A program made the position numbers and the translations under genes. From an uncultured Pelagibacteraceae bacterium (lineage in GTDB: Bacteria > Pseudomonadota > Alphaproteobacteria > Pelagibacterales > Pelagibacteraceae), in the NCBI GenBank assembly GCA_902576395.1, contig CACGVB010000002.1, positions 1 through 64,000 of the forward strand: a stretch of DNA of 64,000 nt, in the 5' to 3' direction. This document shows, piece after piece, positions 30,858-45,466 of the stretch. The notes beneath the pieces are model-generated. The model had not been told where the DNA came from. It did not search any database and saw only the letters and a program-made list of their open reading frames with translations. Every line of letters starts with the position of its first letter. Positions within the stretch are counted from its first letter, which is position 1.

Positions 30858-31427
30858 TCAGCCTTTAAAAATTTTGTCAGGTTTGCCCGTACACATCAGA
30901 TGAGCCTCAGTAATTTTTTCAGGAAACTTGTCTAATTTCCAATTGTTGTCCAAAATATCAAAATATTTTTCTGGGTCAAAATCATCAGACTTTGCAAGCG
31001 TTATACTAAATTCATTATCTTTTCGATAATCTTTCATAATTCCATCAGTAAAATCATCTAAAGGATAATACTCAGGAGCCGTAAACATTACAAAAAAAGC
31101 CATATTGCTAAAAGCTGGCCTAACAAGCACAACATCCGCAACATTCAAAGTATCAGACCCATTTATTCTTATAGGAACCTTTTTTCCTTGTAATTCGGGT
31201 GTCTCTGAACTTTTATAAGTTAAAAAGGAAAACATTATTCCAATTTTATTGCAGTTTCTTTTTTCAAGAACAAATCTCATTTTATCTCCATGAACTACTT
31301 CGCCAGGGACACTAGCTACAACATAACTTCCAAAATCATGTATATTCCATTCATCATCATTAGCATAAGAAAACGTTGTAAAAATAACTGAAACCAATAA
31401 AAAATTTCTTAAAATTTTAAAAAACAC
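30858..31427 (-). CDS. secreted protein of unknown function, paralog of 31482-32057
   Basis: Signal peptide; GTG start at 31427; shares HGD motif, conserved Cys pair and 'YFDI..NNWKLD.F.E' with neighbour. Confidence 0.75.
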   Translation of the reverse strand: MFFKILRNFLLVSVIFTTFSYANDDEWNIHDFGSYVVASVPGEVVHGDKMRFVLEKRNCNKIGIMFSFLTYKSSETPELQGKKVPIRINGSDTLNVADVVLVRPAFSNMAFFVMFTAPEYYPLDDFTDGIMKDYRKDNEFSITLAKSDDFDPEKYFDILDNNWKLDKFPEKITEAHLMCTGKPDKIFKG

Positions 31428-31481: not shown

Positions 31482-32057
31482 TTAACTTTCCTTAATTTTA
31501 TTTTTTTCGTTACAACGCCTATAGAATTCCTTAAAATTTTCAGAGAAATAATCTAGTTTCCAATTATTTCTTCTAATATCGAAATAATTTTTAACCTCAA
31601 AATTTAAGCCATCATTTAATGAAATTTCATATCTCTCGTTTTCCTCAATGAACCCTGATAATTTTTGGGCATATTCTTTTGAATCGTAGGAACCTAACTT
31701 AAATACTACCCAATGAGCTCTATGATCTAATATTTTTTCTATATGAGTAACTTCAGCAAAAAAATCAAAATTATTTATTTTTATTGGAATATTTTGATTT
31801 TCAAATTGGTAAATATTGGCATCACCTTTTGTCGTTAAAAAAGTAAATAAATGATAAACGGTGTCACAATCCTTGTAATTTAAAGATAAAACAATTCTAT
31901 CACCATGTATAAATTCACCGTTTTTAGACATGTAAATAAAGTTTTTATCTTTCTCAATTATAGCCCACCCATCATCCTGAGCTCTAGCATGAGGGTGGAC
32001 TATCAAAAGGATAACAAACGCTACTAAATGAAGAAAAAAGAATAATGATAATCTCAC
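31482..32057 (-). CDS. secreted protein of unknown function, paralog of 30858-31427
   Basis: Signal peptide; residues FIHGDRI, YFDIRRNNWKLDYFSENF shared with downstream gene. Confidence 0.75.
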   Translation of the reverse strand: MRLSLFFFLHLVAFVILLIVHPHARAQDDGWAIIEKDKNFIYMSKNGEFIHGDRIVLSLNYKDCDTVYHLFTFLTTKGDANIYQFENQNIPIKINNFDFFAEVTHIEKILDHRAHWVVFKLGSYDSKEYAQKLSGFIEENERYEISLNDGLNFEVKNYFDIRRNNWKLDYFSENFKEFYRRCNEKNKIKES

Positions 32058-32123
32058 GATTCTATTTCTAATAAATTGATTTGTTAAAAATTGGCCCTGA
32101 TTCAGTTCAAATTATGATTTATA

Positions 32124-32161
32124 AAACTAGATCTGTGAAGTAACTCGCAGATCTAGTTTTT
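32124..32161 (-). terminator. hairpin terminator, 13-bp perfect stem
   Basis: aaaactagatctg (32124-32136) pairs with cagatctagtttt (32149-32161); lies just 3' of the 32176-32319 micro-ORF. Confidence 0.75.
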
Positions 32162-32417: not shown

Positions 32418-33632
32418 TTACTGAAATGTAGGACCTTTTATAAATGCCATTACTCCTTCTAGATTGTAGAAATATACATAAAGAAAAAAAAGGATAGCAA
32501 AATAACTTCCTGGACCGACTGTTTGCGCATATTTATCAACAATACTTAGGTCTTTTCCAGATTTTAGTTTTCTAACAAATGAATAGACGCATAACATAGT
32601 AGCTATACCTGTGTAAAAGTATGAAACTAAAATAAAACAATCAAGAAAAGTTAAATACGAAAGTTTTGGCAAATCTTCATCAATAATAAAATTATAGGCA
32701 ATTAAAGACAGCAAACATACAATGGTTACATTGACTTTAGCTTCTAATTGAGAACCTCTAACCCAAAATACAGACCATGAAATTGCGAGTATAAAAATAA
32801 TTGGTAAAATTATTTTGAACAAATAGTAGGCAGACTGCCTTTCTATCATTATATCTACATATAAACCTTGATAAGGTAAACCATCGTTATCAACATACGG
32901 ATATTGATAATAATCAACTTCACTTATATTCCAACCTGGAATTTGAATTGTTTGATCTAAAAAAAAATATTTTGTTTCTTTGTAGATAGGCATTGATATT
33001 GGTTCTGGCAAAATTTCAACTAAAGTGGATGGAAATTCTGACCACAGTTCAAAAGAAAGAATTTGGTTATCAAATGGAAATCTCCTGAAATCAAAATTGG
33101 CTGAGAATCTTGCACTGTCTCTTAAACGAGTTCCAACATTACCATCACTATAAATATCTACCCAATCTGCATCACCACCAAGATTAACATTTGTCTTACT
33201 TTTTTTATTATAGAATTCGATCGTTGGATAAAAAAGTCTGTTTGCTTGATTCCAAAGTTCCAATGGATTGTATGAACATAGATATGTTCTTTTACCTTTG
33301 TCATTATACAAACCTAAATTTTTGAGAGTATCTCCCAATCTACTCTCATTCCAATCATACCACATTGAATAAAAAGCCTCAAATTCCATTTCTTTTCCAT
33401 TAATCTCAAAAATTTTTTCTATTAGTAAATCGACATATACTTTTACTGGTTCATCAGATTTATAGTTAGGATTTGGATAGTTCATCGCAGATAATATCTT
33501 GTCACAATCCTCACGACTTACTGTGTAGTCTGGATATTTATATACATTTTGTGAAAACGCATAATTATAAAAGCTAAAAAAAGAAAATAAAAAAATAAAA
33601 AAAACTAAAATTTTATGCTCAACTCTATTCAT
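32418..33632 (-). CDS. pentameric ligand-gated ion channel (pLGIC), paralog 1
   Basis: Signal peptide, beta-sandwich ECD with FDFRRFPFDNQILSFELWS (Pro-loop), four-TM C-terminus; M2 EAKVNVTIVCLLSLIAYNFIIDEDLPK resembles GLIC. Confidence 0.88.
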   Translation of the reverse strand: MNRVEHKILVFFIFLFSFFSFYNYAFSQNVYKYPDYTVSREDCDKILSAMNYPNPNYKSDEPVKVYVDLLIEKIFEINGKEMEFEAFYSMWYDWNESRLGDTLKNLGLYNDKGKRTYLCSYNPLELWNQANRLFYPTIEFYNKKSKTNVNLGGDADWVDIYSDGNVGTRLRDSARFSANFDFRRFPFDNQILSFELWSEFPSTLVEILPEPISMPIYKETKYFFLDQTIQIPGWNISEVDYYQYPYVDNDGLPYQGLYVDIMIERQSAYYLFKIILPIIFILAISWSVFWVRGSQLEAKVNVTIVCLLSLIAYNFIIDEDLPKLSYLTFLDCFILVSYFYTGIATMLCVYSFVRKLKSGKDLSIVDKYAQTVGPGSYFAILFFLYVYFYNLEGVMAFIKGPTFQ

Positions 33633-34979
33633 TTAAATTGAACTCACTATTTTTTTAGCTTGATTTATTCCAGATACTTGAGCTCCATTAACAGTACCCC
33701 AATCTTTTGCAGTTGCCTCGCCAGCAAAATAAATTCTATCACCTACAGATTGTCTTAAAATCTCCCTATATTTAAATGCTCCAGGTTCTGCAGATGCCCA
33801 TGCTCCTAAAAATAAAGGATTAGTTGACCAGTTGGCCACGTGAGATTGTTTTAAGTCTTTATTAATTTTATTTCCAAAAATCTTTTTTAATTCACTTAGA
33901 GCAAAATCTAATGAAGCATCTACACCTGCTTTTGCTAGGTTCTTTCCAAATTCACCACCTGGATCACACATACATAATTTAGTATCTGAGGGATTAATTG
34001 TTACACAAAAACCCTCTGGGGATGATGTATTTTGTTTGTCAATTCTGTAATACAAATAATTGTCTTTAGCTTTTTTTTTAAAAAGTTTTTTAAATTTAAA
34101 AGTCACTCTGTTGTAATGACCCATAGAGATTTTGAAAAAAGACTCTTCTTTTTCAGCACTTAAATTAGGTGTGAATTTAATTTGACCAGAACTTAAAACT
34201 CCGTTTGAAACAGTAACAATACATTTTTTTGCTGAAATTATTCCTTTGTCTGTTGATAATTTAACACCTGATCCACTCCAATCAATTGCAGTTACTTTAG
34301 TATTTAGTTGCACTGGTATTTTTTTATACATGTCAGCTACCAGTGAACCATAACCCTCTTTACAATGCCATACTCCACTTTCAGGTATTTCATAATCAAA
34401 ATTAAAATCTTTACATGAATAGTTTGAAAAATCTTTTCCCATTTCCCATGGACCAATTATTGTATGAACCGTATTAAACCATCTATCATCTTGATATGGA
34501 ACTACATCGATAGGAGCCACATCTTTTCTAGTTTTTGCGATTGCTGCAGTTGCATTATCGTAAACTTTCCATAATGCATCCTCATTTGATATTCTTTTGT
34601 TTCCACTATAAACAGAATACATTTCTTCGTATCGCTCTTTGTAAACATTAAAATTGCTATTATTTTCTCCATAAATTTTAAAATTATTTGTATTTCCATT
34701 TTCAATCCACAAAGCTCCAAGATCATATGGCTCCCCAAATATCTGATTATCTGTTATTGCTCTACCACCAATCATATTTGAAGCTTCTAAACAGATAACT
34801 TTTTTACCAGATTTTATAAGTTCATCAGTTGCTGCAAGACCTGCTGCACCAGCACCAATTACCACAACATCATAATTTTCTTTTGAGTTTGCTAAAATAA
34901 TATTTGGAAATGATAATAAACCCAAACCTAAAAGTGATGTCTTTATAAAGCTTCTTCTATTTTTAGGTTTTTGTATCAT
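33633..34979 (-). CDS. flavin-dependent amine oxidase with Tat signal
   Basis: RRSFIKTSLLGLGLLSFPNIILA Tat signal; VVVIGAGAAGLAATDELIKSGKKVICLEAS Rossmann; C-terminal IYFAGEATAKDWGTVNGAQVSGINQA. Confidence 0.9.
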   Translation of the reverse strand: MIQKPKNRRSFIKTSLLGLGLLSFPNIILANSKENYDVVVIGAGAAGLAATDELIKSGKKVICLEASNMIGGRAITDNQIFGEPYDLGALWIENGNTNNFKIYGENNSNFNVYKERYEEMYSVYSGNKRISNEDALWKVYDNATAAIAKTRKDVAPIDVVPYQDDRWFNTVHTIIGPWEMGKDFSNYSCKDFNFDYEIPESGVWHCKEGYGSLVADMYKKIPVQLNTKVTAIDWSGSGVKLSTDKGIISAKKCIVTVSNGVLSSGQIKFTPNLSAEKEESFFKISMGHYNRVTFKFKKLFKKKAKDNYLYYRIDKQNTSSPEGFCVTINPSDTKLCMCDPGGEFGKNLAKAGVDASLDFALSELKKIFGNKINKDLKQSHVANWSTNPLFLGAWASAEPGAFKYREILRQSVGDRIYFAGEATAKDWGTVNGAQVSGINQAKKIVSSI

Positions 34980-34983
34980 AAAA

Positions 34984-36153
34984 TTAATCAGTAAAAAAAA
35001 TTAATATCAAAATTAAATTAATTAAAAGATACACTGGAAATGAAAATTTTCTACATCTTTGATCCACTATAAAAGAGGTTTTTCTATCCTTCTTCTCAAC
35101 GTAGGAATAATTTACATAAATAGTTAAAAGCCCAGACAAACCTACAAATAAATAAGAAATTAAAGTTAGACTATCATAAACTGTAAGATAATTGTAATCA
35201 GGGAGTTTGTCCGACATAACAAAATTAAATGCAATTAAAGACAACAACGAAATTATCGATAGTTCAACGCGTGTACGTATATTTTTAATATCTATCCAAA
35301 ATACACTTAGAGCAATAAAAACTATAAACACTATTGGCAAACCAAATTTGATTAAATAAGAGAAAGAGTTTCTCTCAATATTTATTGTAGTTGTAATCCT
35401 TGAATTTAAGTCTTTTCCATCTTCTTTCCAAAAAGTTCTTTTATACTCAGTATCATAATTTAAAAAATTAATTTTCCATCCAGGTGAGCTTATTCCAAAG
35501 TCTTTATTTTTATTATTAAGTATTAATCTCTCTTTAGCTGAGTTGGAAATTTTAAATTCTATATAATTTGGTACATCTGAGTATTGGACTATTTTAAGTT
35601 CATGTTGATCAAATGGAAATTTTTTAAAATTAAGTTCATTATTAGAAAATTTGTAAAGTTCGTCGTAATACGAATAATAAACCCAACCACTTGTATAAAT
35701 TTTAATCCAATTAGAAGCATAAGACTCAGTTTCATTTAAATTATCAAAAAAGAATTGAAAATCTTTTATTTTTCTATCAGTTAGCGCTTTATCTAGATCA
35801 TATTTACAGTATATATCTTCTTCTTTACCAAGATTTTGCTCAATTATTTTATATTCTGTAAATTCTTCAAATAAATTTAAAACTGAATAATCTTTGTAAG
35901 TGAAATGCCTATCAGCCAAAATATTAAATGTATCATTTATCTCATCTATAAAAATACTGTCAATTTTTAATTTGTGATATACATTAATCTTTTCATTATA
36001 ATTCTCATTTCCAAAATTAAGCTTAGCATAAATCTTGTTACATAAATCAATACTAATATTTTCTCTTATTTTTTTATCCTCATCACTAAAAGAAACACTA
36101 TTAAATAAAAAAAAAATTATGATTAGGAAAATATTTTTATAATTTTTTTTCAT
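34984..36153 (-). CDS. pentameric ligand-gated ion channel (pLGIC), paralog 2
   Basis: Same architecture as 32418-33632: LNFKKFPFDQHELKIVQYS, IERNSFSYLIKFGLPIVFIVFIALSVFWI, M2 RTRVELSIISLLSLIAFNFVMSDKLPD. Confidence 0.87.
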   Translation of the reverse strand: MKKNYKNIFLIIIFFLFNSVSFSDEDKKIRENISIDLCNKIYAKLNFGNENYNEKINVYHKLKIDSIFIDEINDTFNILADRHFTYKDYSVLNLFEEFTEYKIIEQNLGKEEDIYCKYDLDKALTDRKIKDFQFFFDNLNETESYASNWIKIYTSGWVYYSYYDELYKFSNNELNFKKFPFDQHELKIVQYSDVPNYIEFKISNSAKERLILNNKNKDFGISSPGWKINFLNYDTEYKRTFWKEDGKDLNSRITTTINIERNSFSYLIKFGLPIVFIVFIALSVFWIDIKNIRTRVELSIISLLSLIAFNFVMSDKLPDYNYLTVYDSLTLISYLFVGLSGLLTIYVNYSYVEKKDRKTSFIVDQRCRKFSFPVYLLINLILILIFFTD

Positions 36154-36823
36154 ATTCTCTCTTTTTTTTCTTCTGAGATTTTTTAAGCCTTGAAAACATT
36201 CTTAAACCAATGATCCAAGCAATTATTATTACAGCAAATCCTATTACTGGAGTATTGTATATGAAAAAGTTATATGACCCGTGAAGAACAAAAGGTACTA
36301 TAAAAGCAAGTAATAAGTTATCACCTTTTTTTATGAATGAATATTTCATGAAAAAATACCCCATGAATAAGCCAAACACGGCATGTGCTGGCACTGCTGA
36401 AAATGCTCTAACAATTGCAAGTGAAATTGATGAAGTATTAAAATAATCTGCCAATAAGTAGACGTAGTAAAAATTTTCTAATGTTGCAAAACCAAGTGAA
36501 GCACAAACACCATAAACAATACCATCCATTGGCTCATTAAAATCCTTCATCTTATAAACTAAGAAGTATAGTACTGATAATTTTAAACCTTCCTCAACAG
36601 GGGCTGCAGTTAAGAATGAATTAATTAAAGCATCGCTTAGTTCTGTTTTTTCTAATGCTTCACCAAAATATGTATTTAGAAAATATGCAGGTATTGTAAT
36701 TAAAATGCCATAAAAAAATACTTTGATAATTTCAAACTTTGGTTCTCTAAATTTATCGGAAAAAACAAATATTAATATTATTAGTATAGATGGCAGGATT
36801 GTTGCGAGTAACAATTGCATCAA
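36137..36823 (-). CDS. PrsW-like intramembrane metalloprotease family protein
   Basis: AAPVEEGLKLSVLYFLV (EExxK), PMDGIVYGVCASLGFATLENFYYV, PAHAVFGLFMG. Confidence 0.88.
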   Translation of the reverse strand: MMQLLLATILPSILIILIFVFSDKFREPKFEIIKVFFYGILITIPAYFLNTYFGEALEKTELSDALINSFLTAAPVEEGLKLSVLYFLVYKMKDFNEPMDGIVYGVCASLGFATLENFYYVYLLADYFNTSSISLAIVRAFSAVPAHAVFGLFMGYFFMKYSFIKKGDNLLLAFIVPFVLHGSYNFFIYNTPVIGFAVIIIAWIIGLRMFSRLKKSQKKKKREYEKKL

Positions 36824-37281
36824 CTATTTTCTATAGTGGTTTTAATCTTGAGAATTTTATTTTCTAATGCCTCAAAAGCTTGAAAAATTTCTTTTTTCTC
36901 TATCGATGAAATTTCTTTGCCTTTATGACTTGAATTAGTTTTAGATGAATTAATTACATCCATTAATTGTCCATGTAAGATAGTAAATTTAATTAAAAGT
37001 TCGCTTAAATTTTCACTATTAGTCTTTATTTTTTTTAACTCTTTTAAAATTATATATTCATGTGCTCTCAAAAGATAAGGAGTAAGTCCATGCTCAACGC
37101 AAGCTCTATCAATTTTCACGGCATCTCTGTGATCTAACTGCTGATCTAAATCTGGATCACTACATTTTCTAAGAAAAGATTCACTTTTTCCTGTTGCTTC
37201 CTGAATAATTTCTGATTTCAGTTCTTTTATTGCCTCTGTCAGTCCGTGTTCTATTGATGAAATTTCTCTTATCTTAGCCAT
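36820..37281 (-). CDS. predicted HTH/CII-like DNA-binding regulator
   Basis: N-terminal small helical segment ATGKSESFLRKCSDPDLDQQLDHRDAVKIDRACVEHGLTPYLL resembling phage CII-like proteins; first gene of the pLGIC operon. Confidence 0.4.
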   Translation of the reverse strand: MAKIREISSIEHGLTEAIKELKSEIIQEATGKSESFLRKCSDPDLDQQLDHRDAVKIDRACVEHGLTPYLLRAHEYIILKELKKIKTNSENLSELLIKFTILHGQLMDVINSSKTNSSHKGKEISSIEKKEIFQAFEALENKILKIKTTIENS

Positions 37282-37422: not shown

Positions 37423-37509
37423 ATGAAAAATATATTTAAGTATTTACGAATAATCGAAATCAATTTTGAATTCGATTTAATTAAACCATACAGAAAGGAG
37501 GTACTATGA
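37423..37509 (+). CDS. 28-aa leader micro-ORF overlapping the start of the 55-aa ORF (ATGA)
   Basis: gaaaggaaaaaaATG; MKNIFKYLRIIEINFEFDLIKPYRKEVL; stop TGA overlaps next ATG. Confidence 0.4.
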   Translation: MKNIFKYLRIIEINFEFDLIKPYRKEVL

Positions 37510-37673
37510 AAAAATTAGCATTAATAGTTGGATTACTATCTATGATTGCAAGTTCAGCTCATGCATTTAGTTACAGCACACCAAATGTGTTTGGTGGTTA
37601 TAACTACTATGGCGATGTTTCTGGTTATAGCACAAGCAATGTTTTCGGCGGTTATAACTACTACCTAAATTAA
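37506..37673 (+). CDS. 55-aa secreted peptide with tandem YST-NVFGGYNYY repeat (not in ORF track)
   Basis: MKKLALIVGLLSMIASSAHA|FSYSTPNVFGGYNYYGDVSGYSTSNVFGGYNYYLN; SD AAAGGAGGT 5 nt upstream; terminator follows. Confidence 0.85.
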   Translation: MKKLALIVGLLSMIASSAHAFSYSTPNVFGGYNYYGDVSGYSTSNVFGGYNYYLN

Positions 37674-37681
37674 TCAACAAA

Positions 37682-37707
37682 TAAGCCCCTCAATAATGAG
37701 GGGCTTA
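37682..37707 (+). terminator. hairpin terminator after the 55-aa peptide gene
   Basis: taagcccctca (37682-37692) / tgaggggctta (37697-37707), loop ataa. Confidence 0.75.
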
Positions 37708-37787
37708 CAACAAAATAGAAAGGTTAGAAGAATTAATTATAAATAAGATTATTTTTGAGATAAAATTATAATTCTTTAAATACAATT

Positions 37788-39317
37788 ATGGAAAATGAAA
37801 AACTAGACATAACACCAACAGTTGGGCTCTTAGCTCTGTTAAAAAATATGCGTTATACAGAGTGGTACGCTCTTGGTGAATTTGTAGATAATTCAATACA
37901 AAGTTATCGGTTAAATAAAAAAGTTTTAAAAAAACTAGATCCTCGTTTTAAACTTAAAATTAAGATAGATATTTTTAGTAATGAAATCACAATAAGAGAT
38001 AATGCAGCTGGTATTGGACATGAGAGATATGCTGCAGCTTTTGAAACTGGAAAACCACCGCCTGATAGTTCAGGGCTTTCAGAGTTTGGTGTAGGTATGA
38101 AGATTGCAGCTTGTTGGTTTGCAGATAGATGGAGAGTACATACTAAGGCAATTGGAGAAACCGTTTATAGATTAGTAGAATTTGATATAAATAAAATAAG
38201 AGAAAAAAATACTACTACTCTTGACGTAATTAGATCTCCAGCTAAACAAAATGCGCATTATACGATTGTTACATTAAGTAAATTAAACCATAGACCTAAA
38301 ACTACCACTGTAACAAAAATAAAAGAACATTTGGCTTCAATGTACAGGCATCTTATTAATAAAGCAGAAATTGATATTATTGTAGATAATAAAAGTCTTC
38401 GTTACGAAAAACCTAAAATTCGTACATCAGGTTATTATAAAGAGTGGGAGGATGGAATAATTAAAAAACCTAAACCTATTAAATGGTACAAAGAATTTGA
38501 TTTTGATTTTGATAATATACCAATCAATGGATTTGTTGGTATTAGAGAAAAGGGTAGAGTCAAACAACCAGGTTTTTCATTGTTTAGAAGAGGAAGATTA
38601 ATCACTGGCACAGAAGAAAACCCCTTCAAGCCTGAAAAAATTTTTGGTCAAAGTAATGATAGACGACAGCAAGTTATATTCGGCGAGATTAATATGGATG
38701 ATATGCCTGTAGCTTTTTCAAAAAATGATTTTGTGTGGGATGAAGTTAAAAAAAATAAATTTATTACAAAATTACATGAAGCTATACAATTTATAGATAA
38801 AAAGAAATCGATAGATTTAATTAAACAATCAAAACATTGGTCAGAAGATCTTGAAAGAGATGATATAAGAGAAGAGTCAAAAAAAGGGTTAGAGCAAGTA
38901 GAAAAATTTACTGCAAGAGGACTTGAAGAAGCCAAAAATGAAAATAACAAAGTTTCGTCTCTAACAAAAATACATGAAGTGGCTAAAGAAAAACAAAAAG
39001 GCCGTCCTTTTTCGGTAAATTACTTAGGAAAGGAATATCAAGTACAGTTTACTTATGAGTATGATCCAAATGCAACTGAGCTTTATGACATTCAAGTCTC
39101 AAGTGATAAAAAAAAAATAGATATTTTTCTAAATTTAAAACATACATTTGCAAGTAGATTTTTTACCACTCAAAATGAAAGAAATGGTTTCACTATTTTT
39201 ATTGCATACCTTGCTGTATGTGAGGTTCATTTAGTTAGCAAAGAAGGAGTCAGGGATGTTTCTATGATTAGAAATAGATTAAATCAAATTTGTCAAAACA
39301 TCCCTCCTAGAACATGA
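37788..39317 (+). CDS. GHKL ATPase (bacterial MORC/MutL-like) of a restriction/defense locus
   Basis: ALGEFVDNSIQSY (N box), IRDNAAGIG (G1), GLSEFGVGMKIAACWFADRW (G2). Confidence 0.88.
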   Translation: MENEKLDITPTVGLLALLKNMRYTEWYALGEFVDNSIQSYRLNKKVLKKLDPRFKLKIKIDIFSNEITIRDNAAGIGHERYAAAFETGKPPPDSSGLSEFGVGMKIAACWFADRWRVHTKAIGETVYRLVEFDINKIREKNTTTLDVIRSPAKQNAHYTIVTLSKLNHRPKTTTVTKIKEHLASMYRHLINKAEIDIIVDNKSLRYEKPKIRTSGYYKEWEDGIIKKPKPIKWYKEFDFDFDNIPINGFVGIREKGRVKQPGFSLFRRGRLITGTEENPFKPEKIFGQSNDRRQQVIFGEINMDDMPVAFSKNDFVWDEVKKNKFITKLHEAIQFIDKKKSIDLIKQSKHWSEDLERDDIREESKKGLEQVEKFTARGLEEAKNENNKVSSLTKIHEVAKEKQKGRPFSVNYLGKEYQVQFTYEYDPNATELYDIQVSSDKKKIDIFLNLKHTFASRFFTTQNERNGFTIFIAYLAVCEVHLVSKEGVRDVSMIRNRLNQICQNIPPRT

Positions 39318-41878
39318 TTGAATGGAGCCCAAAAGAGAATGGTCATTTTGCAAATCTCTATAAGGAAAAATTATCTGAAAAAAATTTTATAGATGCAGAT
39401 GTAAAAAAAATATTCGAAAATTCAAAAGATGTCTTGTCAAAAACAATTAACCCAAACACAAGAAAAAATCATGGAAGGTTATCTTCAAAAAATATAGTGT
39501 TAGGCTACATACAAAGTGGAAAAACTACTTCTATGGAAGCAGTCTCATGTATGGCAAGAGACAATGGGTTTAAATTAATTATTATTCTTTCAGGCCATGT
39601 ATCGAACTTAGCAGATCAGACAAAAGGCAGAACTTATAAGTCATTTGATAATATGTATGGCTGGAAAAAGATCGAAATATTGAGGGGAACCAAAATTGAT
39701 TATACAAATACAGATAATCAATTAAAAAACATTATATCTTCTACTCAGGATGAATTTTTAGATGAAGATGAGAAACCATGTTTATTGATGGTTGTTATGA
39801 AACAATGGCAAAGACTTGATAAAATAATTTCAATTTTTAATCATGCTAATGAAAGTGGTATAGATTTATCTAAAGTTCCAACTTTGATTATAGATGATGA
39901 GGCAGATCACTATTCTTTAGATACAAAAAGTAACTCTAAATCAAATTCAAAAGATAGAAATGCTTCAGAATATTATATCATAGAACAAGGCGATACTCTT
40001 GAAAGTATTTCAGAAAAAAAATTCATTCCAGAAGAAATGTTAAGAAATTTAAATGGATACAATGAGGAAGATGAAGTTATTTTACTTCCTGGTAAAGAAC
40101 TTTTGCTAGAAAAAAACGAAAGTACTACACATAGAAGAATAAAAAGATTAAGACAACTACTACCTAAACATACTTTCCTAGGATATACAGCAACACCAAT
40201 GGCAAATTTTCTTATCTCTACAGTTAATAATTTATCACCAAAGAGTGGTACTGTGCTAGCTCCAGGTTCCATGTATACAGGTGCAAAGTATTTTTTTGGA
40301 ATCGAAGAAAATAAAAAAAAACATGTTAAATTAGTAAGTGAAAAATACGAAAAGGGCGTAAGACCTAATAGTCTTTTAGAAGCTGTCAGAATATTTATCT
40401 TGGGTGTGGCATGTGGGATGATGAATGGAGACCATAAAAAAAAACAAAAAAAAAGATCAATGTTAATTCATCCATCTACAAGTAGAATTGTTCATCAAGA
40501 ATATAAAGATTGGATTGAGGGAATTATTAGAGATTATTCAAAAGCTTATGAAAGTAAAGCTAGAAATACTAGAGATAATTCAAAAAGAATTGATTTTTCT
40601 TTTACTGAAATTGAAAAAGATTTTATAAATTCCTATGAGGAATTGAAAAAAACTCAAAAGAACCTTCCTAAATATGATGATAAATTTATAATTAACATTC
40701 ATAAAGCATTAAAAGAAATTAGTAATAATATTGAATTATTTAATGCAGAGCAGGGCTCTATTCCATTTATAGATTGGGAGAGTGGTGATTTTTATTCAAA
40801 AATTCTGATTGGTGGCATAGGTCTTGAAAGAGGTTATACAATACAAGGCCTAACAATATCATATGTAGTTAGAGAAAGTGGAAGTGATGATACTGTTTAT
40901 CAAAGAGCTAGATTTTTTGGTTATCACAAATCATATATAGGTTTTGTTAGGATGTACTTACCTGATTATTTAATTTCAAATTTTGAGGATCAATATGGAC
41001 AAGAAATAGTTGTTAGAGAAAAAATGCAAGAAGTAATAAACAGAGGTGGTGACCTAAGAAAAGAATTAAAAAGAAGCTTTCCTTTTATATCTAGCAAATA
41101 TGGACCTGTTAGAAAAAATATACTAGGACATAATTTAAAAAAATTCCCTAATCATGGAATTATAATGGATAACAGGGCACATCATCTAGAAATCAATAAC
41201 ATAGAGGAAAATAAAAAAATCTATAATGAACTTAATAATATTAATGGAAAAAAGGATATTTCAGAAATATCAAATCATGCTTATGTAAAAAATATTAAAG
41301 GTATTGAAATTAAAGATAATTTAGATCTGACAGATTTTACTGAAAAATATATAAGTAAAATAAATAGTTATGAGGATACGGCAGACCAGTATGATATTTT
41401 ATCAGAACTCGTAGCCTGGAGAAAAATGAAAAAAGAAGAGGCTATTAAAAATAAAGAAGATCCATCTAAATATAAAAATTTAGAACTTGCAATAATGTTT
41501 ATGAATGACGATGAAAACTTTAACAGAAGAGTTCCAGAAAGAGATTTCAATGATTTATCAAGCAGAATACCAGTAGAACAGGGAGCTAATATGAATAGAC
41601 CAGGTCATGCATATCTCCATTGTGAATTTCTTAGAAACGATGAACCTAAATGGCAACCGACACCAAAAAAAAATTCTCCATATGGAACACCTATCCAAGG
41701 AAAAACACTTAAGACAGCGAATAAGATAGCAACATTGCAAGTTTATAAATTCAACATTTTATCAAAAGAAACTGATCAGATATTAAAAGTTGGAGATTTT
41801 GAAATGATAAATATTCCATATTTTAGATTATATATCCCAAAAATTTTAGGCACAGGTTTCACAGCAGTTAAATTTTAA
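39314..41878 (+). CDS. Z1-domain helicase-like protein with LysM-like insertion
   Basis: Walker A GYIQSGKTTSM, Walker B LIIDDEADHYSLD, FLGYTATPMANFL, RGYTIQGLTISY...QRARFFGY; ATGA overlap with 5' gene; LysM-like segment 39971-40108. Confidence 0.88.
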   Translation: MIEWSPKENGHFANLYKEKLSEKNFIDADVKKIFENSKDVLSKTINPNTRKNHGRLSSKNIVLGYIQSGKTTSMEAVSCMARDNGFKLIIILSGHVSNLADQTKGRTYKSFDNMYGWKKIEILRGTKIDYTNTDNQLKNIISSTQDEFLDEDEKPCLLMVVMKQWQRLDKIISIFNHANESGIDLSKVPTLIIDDEADHYSLDTKSNSKSNSKDRNASEYYIIEQGDTLESISEKKFIPEEMLRNLNGYNEEDEVILLPGKELLLEKNESTTHRRIKRLRQLLPKHTFLGYTATPMANFLISTVNNLSPKSGTVLAPGSMYTGAKYFFGIEENKKKHVKLVSEKYEKGVRPNSLLEAVRIFILGVACGMMNGDHKKKQKKRSMLIHPSTSRIVHQEYKDWIEGIIRDYSKAYESKARNTRDNSKRIDFSFTEIEKDFINSYEELKKTQKNLPKYDDKFIINIHKALKEISNNIELFNAEQGSIPFIDWESGDFYSKILIGGIGLERGYTIQGLTISYVVRESGSDDTVYQRARFFGYHKSYIGFVRMYLPDYLISNFEDQYGQEIVVREKMQEVINRGGDLRKELKRSFPFISSKYGPVRKNILGHNLKKFPNHGIIMDNRAHHLEINNIEENKKIYNELNNINGKKDISEISNHAYVKNIKGIEIKDNLDLTDFTEKYISKINSYEDTADQYDILSELVAWRKMKKEEAIKNKEDPSKYKNLELAIMFMNDDENFNRRVPERDFNDLSSRIPVEQGANMNRPGHAYLHCEFLRNDEPKWQPTPKKNSPYGTPIQGKTLKTANKIATLQVYKFNILSKETDQILKVGDFEMINIPYFRLYIPKILGTGFTAVKF

Positions 41879-42907
41879 TTATTTTAATTTTAATTGCTTC
41901 TTAATTTCGTAAGAAATCTTTTCAGAAAGCAATGGAGGTACAGCATTACCAATCTGTCTCCATTGATCATTAAAATTACCACAAAGTTTATATTGATCAG
42001 GAAAGGTTTGTAATCGTTTTATTTCTGAAATTCTTAAAAAACGGTTTTTCCAATGAAATGGTCCCATATTATTTGAAAAACTTGCTTGAATTGTCCAAGA
42101 TGGTTTATTAGGTGAAAGTTTCAATAAAAAGGACCAATATCTGGATCTCCATTTAAATTTTGGCTTAGGGTGATTTCTTTCCTTTGTAAAAAATAAATAA
42201 TTTTCACCTGGAGGAATTAATTTTAATAGATCCTTATCCTTAGAACCTGGTATTTTTTCTTTATCTTCTTTAAGCGGGTAATCTAAATCACCAATCGCAT
42301 CCTTACAAGTTACCCATGGTTTGTATAAGAGATTGTCGTCTTGAATTTGATTGAAATGTGTTGGGATGGGAAAGACAAATTTGCCTAAGTCTTTTCTAAA
42401 TCCTACACATATAAACCTTTGTCGAATTTGAGGAACACCATAATCAGCACAATTAATAATTTGATAAGAAATATTATATCCTAGTTTTTCCGACTCTTTT
42501 TCAATGTATTCTAAAGCTGCTCGATGAGGCTTGTAAACAAAACCATGAACATTTTCAAAAAAAAAAGCTTTAGGTTTAAATGTTTTTATGGCTAAAAAAT
42601 AATTTATTAAAGTGTGTGTATCTTCATCATCCATGGCTCTTTTTTTATTTTTTAAATAAAATCTAGATTTAGAAAATGGTGGACAAGGAGGTCCACCAAC
42701 TACAATATCAAATTTATATTCTTTCTTTAAATTTCCGAAATTAATATTTCTTATATCATCACAAATAATTTTAGAGCAAATTTTGTTATTTTTTAGCGTT
42801 TCACAAGCTTTATCCCAATTTTCTATGGCTAAAGTTGTTTGAAATTTGTTTTTTTTAAAACCTAAATCAATACCACCAGCACCTGAGTATAAACTTAAAG
42901 TTTTCAT
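41879..42907 (-). CDS. DNA (cytosine-5-)-methyltransferase 1
   Basis: SLYSGAGGIDLGF, VVGGPPCPPFSKS, FFENVHG, QIRQRF, RQIGNAVPPLL. Confidence 0.95.
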   Translation of the reverse strand: MKTLSLYSGAGGIDLGFKKNKFQTTLAIENWDKACETLKNNKICSKIICDDIRNINFGNLKKEYKFDIVVGGPPCPPFSKSRFYLKNKKRAMDDEDTHTLINYFLAIKTFKPKAFFFENVHGFVYKPHRAALEYIEKESEKLGYNISYQIINCADYGVPQIRQRFICVGFRKDLGKFVFPIPTHFNQIQDDNLLYKPWVTCKDAIGDLDYPLKEDKEKIPGSKDKDLLKLIPPGENYLFFTKERNHPKPKFKWRSRYWSFLLKLSPNKPSWTIQASFSNNMGPFHWKNRFLRISEIKRLQTFPDQYKLCGNFNDQWRQIGNAVPPLLSEKISYEIKKQLKLK

Positions 42908-42943
42908 TACTTTTTAAATTAATTTTGCTAATTTATCTGTAGT

Positions 42944-44428
42944 ATGATTTATAATCTAATTAATTATTCTTTAGAACAAAAATTATATAATTATACACTT
43001 AAGCAAATTGATGGGAATCTTTTAGAAATTATTTTTAATGATAATAAATTTCTTATATATCATTCGAATATACAAGGACCAGTAAATAAAAGACCTCCTG
43101 CAGAAAGAAGGATACAACTAAATCCAAAACTTAAAGAAACACTCCATTCATATATGGGAGAGGATTATAGAATAATACTATTAGGATTTGATAAAACAAC
43201 TAATACATTTTCATTTTGGAATTATGGATATGATATAAATATAAGATCTACTCAATCATTACCGACAAGAATTCAAACACTTAACAAAGCCAAAGCAGTA
43301 GGTTTTGATTTTCATTATTACAAAAATAAAAACTTAGCTGATCGAGCGACCACAGAACACTCTTTTGCAATTAATGCTTTCTTATTTCCCCTAATTTTGG
43401 AAAACTATCAATTAATTTTTAATAAAGATTTCCCAGAAATATTTAGAAAAAAAATCCAGAGTTGGAATAATAGATTTCGAAAAGATGAATTAGTTCTATG
43501 TTTGGATTTATATAACAGAAAATATCCTATTAATAAGAACGCATTAGAAGTTGAGGAAATATCGAATTATTGTAAAAAAAGATCTGATTTGATGGGATTT
43601 GTACCTCGAGAATTCTATTACCAAGAATTATCTGCTAAAAACTTTAGAAATATAAATGGAATAAGTAAAAAAATTGAAAATATTGCTACGGCCGATCCTA
43701 CAAAAAAATTATCAAGAAAAGGCTTAATTCCAGATCCACATGCAAAGAAAATTTTGATAGAAGAATATATTACAAAATCAAATGTAATAGATCATAAAAA
43801 ATTATATGAAAATGCTAAACAAATAAAAAATAGAATTATTTCAGATAAAATTGATGTTTTAATTGGAGCAACACCAATCGAGCAATTTGAAAATAATGTA
43901 CAAAATATATTTAATGAAGAACATCCTAATGTACTTTTAAATTTTGATATAAACCGTTCATATAAAGATCCAAATTTTGATGAAAAAAATTATTCTGATC
44001 CAATTGATGCATTTAATGCAAGAGATAGAGCTACTAAACTTCATGAGTTTGTGGTCAAAAGTTTAGCAGAAATTTGTATTGAGAAAGGTCTTAAAGTTTT
44101 AGATTCTGTTCATATCGATTTCTATACAGAATATAAAAATAGAGGTAAGTTATTTGAAATAAAAACCTTTAATAAAACTAATTTAAAAAAACAAATTAGA
44201 TATGCAATTATTCAATTAAAAGAATATTATTTTAAATATGCTAAATTTAATAAACAAATACTCAAGGATACTGATTTATTCATTTTGTTAAACGATAGCC
44301 CTCAAGAATTTATTAAAATAGAAGAAATTGAATTTTTAAAGGATCAAAATATCAATATATGTTGGTTTAAAAATAATAAAATTCAAACATTCAAAGATAA
44401 TCAATCAAAAATTAATTGGCTATTATAA
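42944..44428 (+). CDS. predicted restriction endonuclease (PD-(D/E)XK-like) of the MORC/Z1 locus
   Basis: C-terminal VHIDFYTEYKNRGKLFEIKTFNKTNLKKQIRYAIIQLKEYYF fits a D...ExK...Q nuclease pattern; lies between two MTases. Confidence 0.65.
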   Translation: MIYNLINYSLEQKLYNYTLKQIDGNLLEIIFNDNKFLIYHSNIQGPVNKRPPAERRIQLNPKLKETLHSYMGEDYRIILLGFDKTTNTFSFWNYGYDINIRSTQSLPTRIQTLNKAKAVGFDFHYYKNKNLADRATTEHSFAINAFLFPLILENYQLIFNKDFPEIFRKKIQSWNNRFRKDELVLCLDLYNRKYPINKNALEVEEISNYCKKRSDLMGFVPREFYYQELSAKNFRNINGISKKIENIATADPTKKLSRKGLIPDPHAKKILIEEYITKSNVIDHKKLYENAKQIKNRIISDKIDVLIGATPIEQFENNVQNIFNEEHPNVLLNFDINRSYKDPNFDEKNYSDPIDAFNARDRATKLHEFVVKSLAEICIEKGLKVLDSVHIDFYTEYKNRGKLFEIKTFNKTNLKKQIRYAIIQLKEYYFKYAKFNKQILKDTDLFILLNDSPQEFIKIEEIEFLKDQNINICWFKNNKIQTFKDNQSKINWLL

Positions 44429-45466
44429 ATTACGAATCAAGTATTTAACCATTGCTTTGCCAAGTAAAGGGGGCACCGCATTTCCGATTTGTTTTTGGAT
44501 GGATCTTCTATTTCCATGAAATTTATAGTTTTTTGGAAATGTTTGAATAGCAGCTATTTCAGGAACCCTGAGCCTTCTATTGTTCCAATGAAAAGGGCCA
44601 ACCCAGGGACCAGGCTGCGCAGCAATTGTCCATGAAGGTAAATCCTCTTTTAGTTTTAATAAAAAATTCCAAAATCTCGTATTTTTTATAAAACTTGATT
44701 TCTTCCCATCACATAATGCTAAATAATTCTCTCCAGGTTTCACTTTTTTTAATTCTTTATAATACGTACCTTTATTTGTTTTCTCATGCTCCTCTTCATA
44801 AATATCCGTATTAAATTCTTTAATGTGTTCACCAACTGTTTCATATGGTTTAAGATTTAGATTAAGTAAATCAGGTTTATTTGGATCATAATGTGTTTTT
44901 TCAGGCTCTTGATCGTCAAATTTATTTTTAGATCCCATAAAAAAAACCCTTTTTCTTTTTTGAGGCACTCCGTAGTCAAGAGCATTGGTTCTTATCATTT
45001 TAAAATTGTAATTAAATTTTTTTGTTTTTCGAACTATGGTATCAACTGCTTTCTTATTTGTCGGATGAAGAATACTTTCAACATTCTCAATTAAAAAACC
45101 ATCAGGGTTAATTTCATTTATAAAATTAAAAAAATCGTCAATACAATTTCTTGGATCTTTAGTTATTTTTCTATTTTCGTTTGTAATCCAATAGCCATTT
45201 TTAGAAAAAGGTTGGCATGGAGGCCCCCCTATAATTATTGTCTTTCCTGTTCCCAAATGTTTTTCAACATTTTTTATTTTTATTTTTTTTACATCTTCAT
45301 GAATTACCTCAGTATTCTCAAATTCTGAATTCAGTTTTAAGGTTTTGATTGAGTCCTCATCATTATCAATTGATACTTTAATATCAACGTTGTTAAGTTT
45401 GCATCCCAAATCTAAACCACCAGCACCAGAAAAAAGACTTATTGCTTGAATTTTGTTATTTTTCAT
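44423..45466 (-). CDS. DNA (cytosine-5-)-methyltransferase 2
   Basis: SLFSGAGGLDLGC, GGPPCQPFSKNG, IENVES, QKRKRVFF, KQIGNAVPPLL. Confidence 0.95.
   Translation of the reverse strand: MKNNKIQAISLFSGAGGLDLGCKLNNVDIKVSIDNDEDSIKTLKLNSEFENTEVIHEDVKKIKIKNVEKHLGTGKTIIIGGPPCQPFSKNGYWITNENRKITKDPRNCIDDFFNFINEINPDGFLIENVESILHPTNKKAVDTIVRKTKKFNYNFKMIRTNALDYGVPQKRKRVFFMGSKNKFDDQEPEKTHYDPNKPDLLNLNLKPYETVGEHIKEFNTDIYEEEHEKTNKGTYYKELKKVKPGENYLALCDGKKSSFIKNTRFWNFLLKLKEDLPSWTIAAQPGPWVGPFHWNNRRLRVPEIAAIQTFPKNYKFHGNRRSIQKQIGNAVPPLLGKAMVKYLIRNL

Follow-up and report, generated by a model that had tools for sequence, protein, structure and literature searches.

The 64,000-nt window analysed here is part of contig CACGVB010000002.1 (assembly GCA_902576395.1) of an uncultured Pelagibacteraceae bacterium (SAR11). 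It holds five minus-strand open reading frames (ORFs) that overlap or abut and encode, in this order, a phage CII-like regulator (CII), a PrsW-family protease, a divergent pentameric ligand-gated ion channel (pLGIC-2), a flavin amine-oxidase-family enzyme (AO), and a second channel (pLGIC-1). These genes very probably belong to a conserved functional module. Judged from gene content, the core of the module is CII-PrsW-pLGIC, and the enzyme is exchangeable, being either AO or a DegP/HtrA-type protease with a periplasmic caspase. The preferred reading, for which belief and doubt were judged about equal, is that this locus represents one version of a cell-envelope chemosensory or stress-response module of SAR11. 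An initial annotation of the locus had described five minus-strand genes with overlapping or abutting ends, and all of them were confirmed by an ORF check. It had named two pLGICs, a flavin amine oxidase, PrsW, and an HTH-like regulator; Pfam agreed with these identities, the last being a Phage_CP76/CII protein. It had also considered the gene set undescribed. None was found in the literature searched, which lay outside subscription journals and contained no paper combining PrsW with ligand-gated channels, or SAR11 with ligand-gated ion channels.

Conservation was assessed by a profile scan of GTDB genomes, which gave 77 loci, nearly all from SAR11, or 78 including the window. CII was located no more than four genes from a pLGIC in 59/78 loci and PrsW in 51/78, while at least one of PrsW, CII, HtrA, and caspase was present within 8 kb in 77/78 pLGIC loci, most of which had PrsW and/or CII. 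In a sample of 196 genomes of the family, pLGIC was present in 19, PrsW in 21, and CII in 21. PrsW occurred in 11 of the 19 genomes with a pLGIC versus 10 of the 177 others (2.0 co-occurrences expected, Fisher p=6e-8); pLGIC and CII had 10 genomes in common (p=1e-6) and PrsW and CII had 11 (p=2e-7), these values being uncorrected for shared ancestry. PrsW and pLGIC were no more than 10 kb apart in 11/11 genomes with both. The loci are situated at several chromosomal sites, one of which adjoins CinA and its neighbouring core genes; from what we take the flanking genes to be, another is bordered by dihydrolipoamide succinyltransferase and PriA, and a third follows a primase gene. The linkage is therefore not explained by inheritance of one fixed site. 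Conserved co-occurrence had been chosen beforehand as a check that could refute the initial annotation, and it was observed both in these statistics and in the adjacency of AO and pLGIC-1 in 12/12 genomes. No PrsW, CII, or AO neighbours were found for the pLGICs of five other proteobacterial genomes or for other SAR11 pLGIC subfamilies. One such SAR11 subfamily (L149:3199-7583) directly follows an apparent TRAP transporter operon, whose genes were assumed from inspection to encode a solute-binding protein, DctQ, and DctM.

The interchange of enzyme modules between sister loci had been missed in the initial annotation. Channels without AO often have nearby a gene (c2) with a DegP/HtrA-type protease domain (NCBIfam Do family, 1.8e-32) and a gene (c4) for a signal-peptide-bearing caspase (Peptidase_C14). 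Within the set of pLGIC loci, AO and caspase share no locus and AO and HtrA share one. Caspases are usually cytoplasmic proteins; the caspase-like proteins at L024:4803-6224 and L026:4439-6328, both in SAR11 channel loci, have a signal peptide and visible His/Cys motifs. The channels themselves also differ, since 86-162 residues precede the ligand domain in most non-AO channels versus 34-44 in AO-linked channels. A profile of this N-terminal extension matched the PDZ domain of an RseP-like site-2 protease (2e-11) and also the DegP/DegQ PDZ, and most sister channels accordingly have a PDZ domain at the N-terminus. Single-sequence searches gave only sub-threshold PDZ matches and Pfam called the domain only weakly; a single-motif regular expression was too strict (20 matches) and the profile search was used instead. 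PDZ domains typically belong to HtrA and site-2 proteases. Here, the HtrA-type protease beside the PDZ channel has no recognised PDZ, and neither do the window's own two channels. A model of a PDZ channel, with a predicted local distance difference test score (pLDDT) of 76, matched pLGICs including DeCLIC; its domain packing was poor (TM-score 0.32-0.37 to the query) and it was not used for detail. A gene-context study of pLGICs reported periplasmic binding protein (PBP) and Cache partners (PMC549065). The sister loci resemble DeCLIC and the Cache/PBP-fused pLGICs (PMC549065, PMC9897478) in the extra N-terminal periplasmic domain of the channels and in operon partners that are possible ligand handlers. 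They differ in that the domain is PDZ and not Cache, PBP, or MCP-N and in that the partner genes encode proteases or a flavoenzyme. The two channels of the window, moreover, have no extra domain.

The regulator passed the Phage_CP76 model marginally, at 26.9 bits against a cut-off of 26. Upstream of its gene is an operator-like palindrome, TTGGACAAA-N21-TTTGTCCAA (type A), which is absent from the initial annotation. Regulator and palindrome together would make up an autonomous regulatory unit. Its arms were found at exactly 21-nt spacing in about 20 other loci, before CII, a stand-alone pLGIC, or a small gene (c3). With at most 1 mismatch, type A occurred at 4 places in the 196 SAR11 genomes, all in CII-bearing genomes. 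The scan of the loci returned 46 matches in total versus 11 in shuffles; those with 3 mismatches mostly have scattered spacers and represent background. A second palindrome, CCGTAGG-N16-CCTACGG (type B), was present in 9/9 loci with a type-B CII, and in none of the other loci of the set or the shuffles. Because subtype-specific palindromes are conserved, which is circumstantial, the CII-like protein probably acts at its palindrome. It resembles phage CII (CP76) in its family match and in the palindrome upstream of its gene. Unlike phage CII, it is encoded chromosomally, is partnered with PrsW and pLGIC, had no relative in the phage records searched, and is predicted to bind a palindrome with a long spacer.

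The PrsW gene matched NCBIfam PrsW at 1.6e-40, below the cut-off of that equivalog model, in addition to its Pfam family (Table 1). The motifs are kept: EEGLK at residue 77 (EExxK), FATLEN at 112 (FxxxEN), and the His motifs PAHAVF at 145 and LHGSYNF at 180. Systems in which PrsW or regulated intramembrane proteolysis operates with HtrA or DegS (SigW and SigE stress responses) are similar in the intact PrsW motifs and in the HtrA-type protease and PDZ domains held by sister loci. They are dissimilar in that here the PDZ is located on an ion channel, the regulator is CII-like, and no sigma/anti-sigma pair was seen: no anti-sigma factor or extracytoplasmic function (ECF) sigma factor was recognised among the annotated recurring neighbours, which were not scanned exhaustively. 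Several of the SAR11 PrsW loci without a pLGIC (L119-L125, L127) adjoin genes for exported proteins, of the DUF2167 type or others, or for a two-helix membrane-protein pair.

For pLGIC-1, both Neur_chan_LBD and Neur_chan_memb were over the Pfam cut-off. The closest solved relative in a PDB search was sTeLIC (7.5e-24), followed by GLIC and ELIC, and the FPFD loop, W234, and R265 were invariant in a 12-member pLGIC-1 alignment. An AlphaFold2 model based on 12 sequences was of moderate quality (pLDDT 63), though Foldseek matched it, at probability 1.0, to structures including GABA-A receptors and sTeLIC, in keeping with a pLGIC fold. Residues were mapped onto ELIC for 12 AO-linked channels and 80 other channels (92 in total). 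The position of ELIC Glu77 was E/D in 12/12 AO-linked channels versus 28/80 others. At further ELIC sites the AO-linked channels have Arg (Asn103), Trp (Glu131), and Glu (Phe133), and the Phe188 position is Tyr in 12/12; the pocket residues of pLGIC-1 are E139, R169, W197, E199, and Y254. The Tyr38 position is not aromatic in pLGIC-1, and the Phe19 and Tyr175 sites are in alignment gaps and were unscored. As the ELIC amine has been placed between Glu77 and Glu131 and is framed by aromatics (PMC3119659), the elements needed to hold a cationic or zwitterionic ligand appear to be present in a rearranged form. Gating of pLGIC-1 by an amine or amino-acid-like ligand was rated as plausible, a little short of probable. 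The pore lining of AO-linked channels has E at -2', L9', A13', and F16', and pLGIC-1 is predicted to be cation-selective because of the GLIC-type Glu at -2'. In summary of the comparison with ELIC and sTeLIC, the ligand-binding domain (LBD) and four-helix transmembrane (TM) fold, the ELIC-type L9'/A13'/F16' pore, and the acid and aromatic pocket are shared; the loop B W-x-E in place of E-x-F, the Arg at Asn103, the non-aromatic Tyr38 position, the genes encoded alongside (AO, PrsW, and CII), and a ligand that is only predicted are differences.

Sequence variation within the pLGIC-1 family is concentrated in the ligand domain, which has a mean identity of 57% versus 93.5% in M1-M3 at similar synonymous divergence. 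Median pN/pS was 0.14 for the channel TM region, 0.23 for AO, and 0.57 for the ligand domain, with synonymous divergence near saturation throughout. AO and the TM region of pLGIC-1 are under purifying selection, and constraint on the ligand domain is looser. The ligand domains of the family form distinct types while AO stays similar.

The second channel is more divergent. Pfam recognised only Neur_chan_memb in pLGIC-2, which is nevertheless a full pLGIC with LBD and TM region, as it aligned with pLGIC-1 over 352 columns (30% identity, E=1e-26) and, using phmmer, with GLIC/ELIC-type chains. It occupies the longest branch of the channel tree (best identity 30-33%), has no ELIC-type pocket residues, and has a pore with R at -2' and E at 2' that is unique among the 92 channels. 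It may be a non-binding partner subunit. In three AO loci pLGIC-1 is the sole channel, so that it can presumably act alone. With no close relative of pLGIC-2, a conserved channel pair is not the rule. No pLGIC beyond these two was present in the source genome assembly (1.1 Mb, 75% complete).

The N-terminus of AO contains the twin-arginine motif NRRSFIKTS, of the RRxFxK type. Its RR, located at residue 8, does not vary across an alignment of 17 AOs, which agrees with the earlier claim of twin-arginine translocation (Tat); export by this route is predicted from the motif. A flavin motif, GAGAAG, is present at residue 42. The best PDB profile match was LSD2 (5e-42), and the enzyme is nearest to LSD1/2 and polyamine oxidase (PAO). 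It shares with them the flavin motif and the C-terminal FAGEAT..GA, and differs in being bacterial, in its Tat signal, and in an Arg at the flavin-N5 lysine. An AO of at least 64% identity was present in 12 genomes including the window, and in 12/12 a pLGIC-1-type channel directly follows AO, the two genes being -3 to +11 bp apart. The AO-linked channels form one side of a branch with support 80, requiring 1 change versus a shuffled mean of 11.5 (0/500). In about 400 SAR11 genomes from two samples, AO at this identity was found only in the source genome and in G180, both with channels; the other AO loci were found using the channel as bait and provide no test of a channel-less AO. The source genome has a second Tat-signal AO-family gene (L113:6304-7653, G000:C21), 44% identical and directly after a probable TctABC-type transporter.

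In the preferred reading, the pLGIC ligand domain should face the periplasm, where a small cationic or zwitterionic nitrogen compound would open pLGIC-1, with an inflow of cations and depolarisation as the result. AO, likewise periplasmic, would shape the signal by consuming the agonist or by making it from a precursor. PrsW would cleave one of the module's membrane proteins, perhaps a subunit of a channel, the CII-like protein would set expression via the palindrome, and the enzyme or protease module would tune or execute the response. We infer every step from ligand to output. The presence of a DegP/HtrA-type protease and a caspase with PDZ channels in sister loci argues that the common theme is the coupling of channel state to envelope proteolysis. 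The narrower proposal that AO acts on the same ligand as pLGIC-1 was regarded as possible and rather doubtful.

Several observations weigh against this reading. Ten PrsW genomes of the 196-genome sample have no pLGIC; PrsW therefore also works without one, and other partners are suggested for it in such SAR11 genomes. The type B palindrome was sought before PrsW and not found there, and precedes CII or c3 in AO loci with a type-B CII. The second channel is not conserved, having no relative above about 33% identity in 201 genomes of the genus. In AO, Arg291 takes the position of the flavin-N5 catalytic Lys of LSD, PAO, and monoamine oxidase (MAO), and Arg is found in 12/12 orthologues. This lysine (LSD1 K661 type) promotes oxygen reactivity in the amine-oxidase superfamily, and whether AO is active as an oxidase is therefore uncertain. 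It may be a dehydrogenase, or an oxidase that works slowly; as the Lys is lacking, it is best termed an amine-oxidase-family enzyme and not a proven oxidase. Co-evolution of AO and channel, sought using a mirror-tree comparison, was not supported, as the AO and pLGIC-1 distance matrices were uncorrelated (r=0.10, p=0.17), which points to recombination having exchanged parts. In some loci (L044/L040) near-identical AOs are combined with very different ligand domains, and this weakens a shared-ligand model. Finally, AO paralogues of 40-45% identity are located beside tripartite tricarboxylate-type transporters, without channels; in several genomes the upstream transporter trio was taken from its sequence to be TctABC-like.

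The initial annotation had proposed that an amine could gate both channels and also be the substrate of the periplasmic oxidase. In this explanation the oxidase destroys the amine that opens the channels, and PrsW and the regulator would be ancillary. The position of AO directly upstream of pLGIC-1 in 12/12 genomes and the acid/aromatic pocket of pLGIC-1 are consistent with this. ELIC is opened by primary amines including putrescine and gamma-aminobutyric acid (GABA) (PMC3119659), sTeLIC was solved with an aryl-ethylamine (4-bromophenethylamine, 9ewa, from the Foldseek matches), and SAR11 takes up and metabolises polyamines (PMC8437039). The replaced catalytic Lys, the incongruent histories of AO and ligand domain, a pLGIC-2 with neither pocket residues nor an orthologue, and the lack of AO in most sister systems all count against it. 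Since the core is CII-PrsW-pLGIC and AO is one of two alternative modules, sensing and clearing of an amine is ruled out as the function of the family as a whole. As an account of the locus it was considered unlikely, and it is retained, as a subsidiary hypothesis, for nothing but the AO variant.

Two further explanations were both thought improbable, and to a similar degree. In the first, the locus serves anti-phage defence by abortive infection: a triggered channel would depolarise the cell, the proteases or enzyme would be the triggers, and CII and the patchy distribution would mark a mobile defence set. Such a role would suit the presence in 19/196 genomes, the several chromosomal sites, a regulator from a phage-type family, the resemblance of the caspase and trypsin modules to PADLOC defence proteases, and the Z1/ATPase/methyltransferase system next door in the window. 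PADLOC, however, returned no match for the channels, PrsW, or CII, and only a nucleotide-binding-motif match for AO. A C5 methyltransferase was within 8 kb in only 3/56 long loci, as was a Z1 gene (3/56), and many insertions are between housekeeping genes. The label of defence system was rejected on the PADLOC result and because neighbouring restriction genes are only occasional. Viral origin was likewise rejected, as the channel profile found no copies in 2.9 million viral contigs, CII had no relative in phage records, and pLGIC-1 none in plasmids. A defence role lacks support.

In the second, the locus is an add-on for nutrient acquisition, in which AO would process periplasmic organic nitrogen and the channel would either let cations or ammonium through passively or act as a sensor that adjusts uptake. 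The AO paralogues that follow TctABC-like transporters, and the single SAR11 channel from a different pLGIC subfamily whose gene is in what is probably a TRAP-transporter operon, are in keeping with it; no transporter genes were recognised in the conserved AO-pLGIC-1 neighbourhoods, however, and the fixed association with PrsW and CII would be left unexplained. Chance clustering in a hypervariable island without shared function, to which the variable site beside CinA and its adjoining core genes and the incongruent AO and channel trees might point, is very improbable and largely refuted by the conservation data, namely that AO adjoins the channel in 12/12 genomes and does so at different sites, that co-occurrence is statistically strong, and that palindromes are shared.

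The features of the locus are listed in Table 1. The five-gene unit is compact and probably co-transcribed; a scan for sigma-70 promoters was uninformative (43 found versus 45.5 expected). Membership of S2 in the operon is uncertain, with a gap of about 360 bp after pLGIC-1. Members of the S1/S2 family were no more than 4 genes from a pLGIC in 5/78 loci; relatives were seen near pLGICs in several SAR11 loci, in L066 with PhyH/AzlD. Between pLGIC-1 and S2 is a 16-pair hairpin (AAAACTAGATCTGTGA...) at 32123-32160, which is terminator-like on the plus strand. On the other side of the operon, a short plus-strand ORF (37450-37710) was read by eye as a secreted peptide of about 56 aa starting near 37506, with repeated YSTxNVFGGYNYY-like segments; a strong terminator-like hairpin is present at 37681-37708, 3' of this ORF. 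The adjoining region at 37788-45466 is a probable restriction/defence system with genes for an HATPase_c_3 protein, a Z1-domain protein with a LysM match, and an MTaX1 protein, and with two C5 methyltransferases on the other strand.

Table 1. Coordinates, strand, and supporting matches of features in and around the locus (window positions).
Feature	Coordinates	Strand	Evidence
CII-like (Phage_CP76) transcription regulator, 153 aa	36820..37281	-	PF06892 E=4.8e-6
PrsW-family glutamic intramembrane protease, 228 aa, TTG start	36137..36823	-	PF13367 1.7e-35; catalytic motifs intact
pLGIC-2, divergent channel subunit, without PDZ	34984..36153	-	PF02932 1.5e-7; GLIC/ELIC by phmmer
AO, Tat-signal flavin amine-oxidase-family enzyme	33633..34979	-	PF01593 (Amino_oxidase) 6e-45
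pLGIC-1, ELIC/sTeLIC-like channel, 404 aa	32418..33632	-	PF02931 1.2e-11 + PF02932 4.7e-7
Operator-like palindrome TTGGACAAA-N21-TTTGTCCAA	37312..37350	.	Exact match, 31 bp upstream of CII-like start
S2, secreted ~190-aa protein, possible downstream member	31482..32057	-	No Pfam match above cut-off
S1, secreted ~190-aa protein, S2 paralogue	30858-31427		No credible Pfam family

Taken at its widest, the module may, tentatively, represent a new class of envelope signalling, in which pLGIC receptors, many with PDZ, would control proteolysis by PrsW and periplasmic HtrA/caspase via ion flux or conformation, under a CII-like regulator and an operator that are specific to the subtype. In the version with AO, this would amount to a neurotransmitter-like circuit, with an exported flavoenzyme that produces or removes the agonist of the receptor it is paired with. 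The loci provide a previously undescribed context for the bacterial pLGIC family and new channels whose binding pockets are fixed yet unusual; PDZ joins the known pLGIC accessory domains. GLIC and ELIC are used as structural models for human nerve receptors, and the conserved gene set makes the physiological role of bacterial pLGICs testable.

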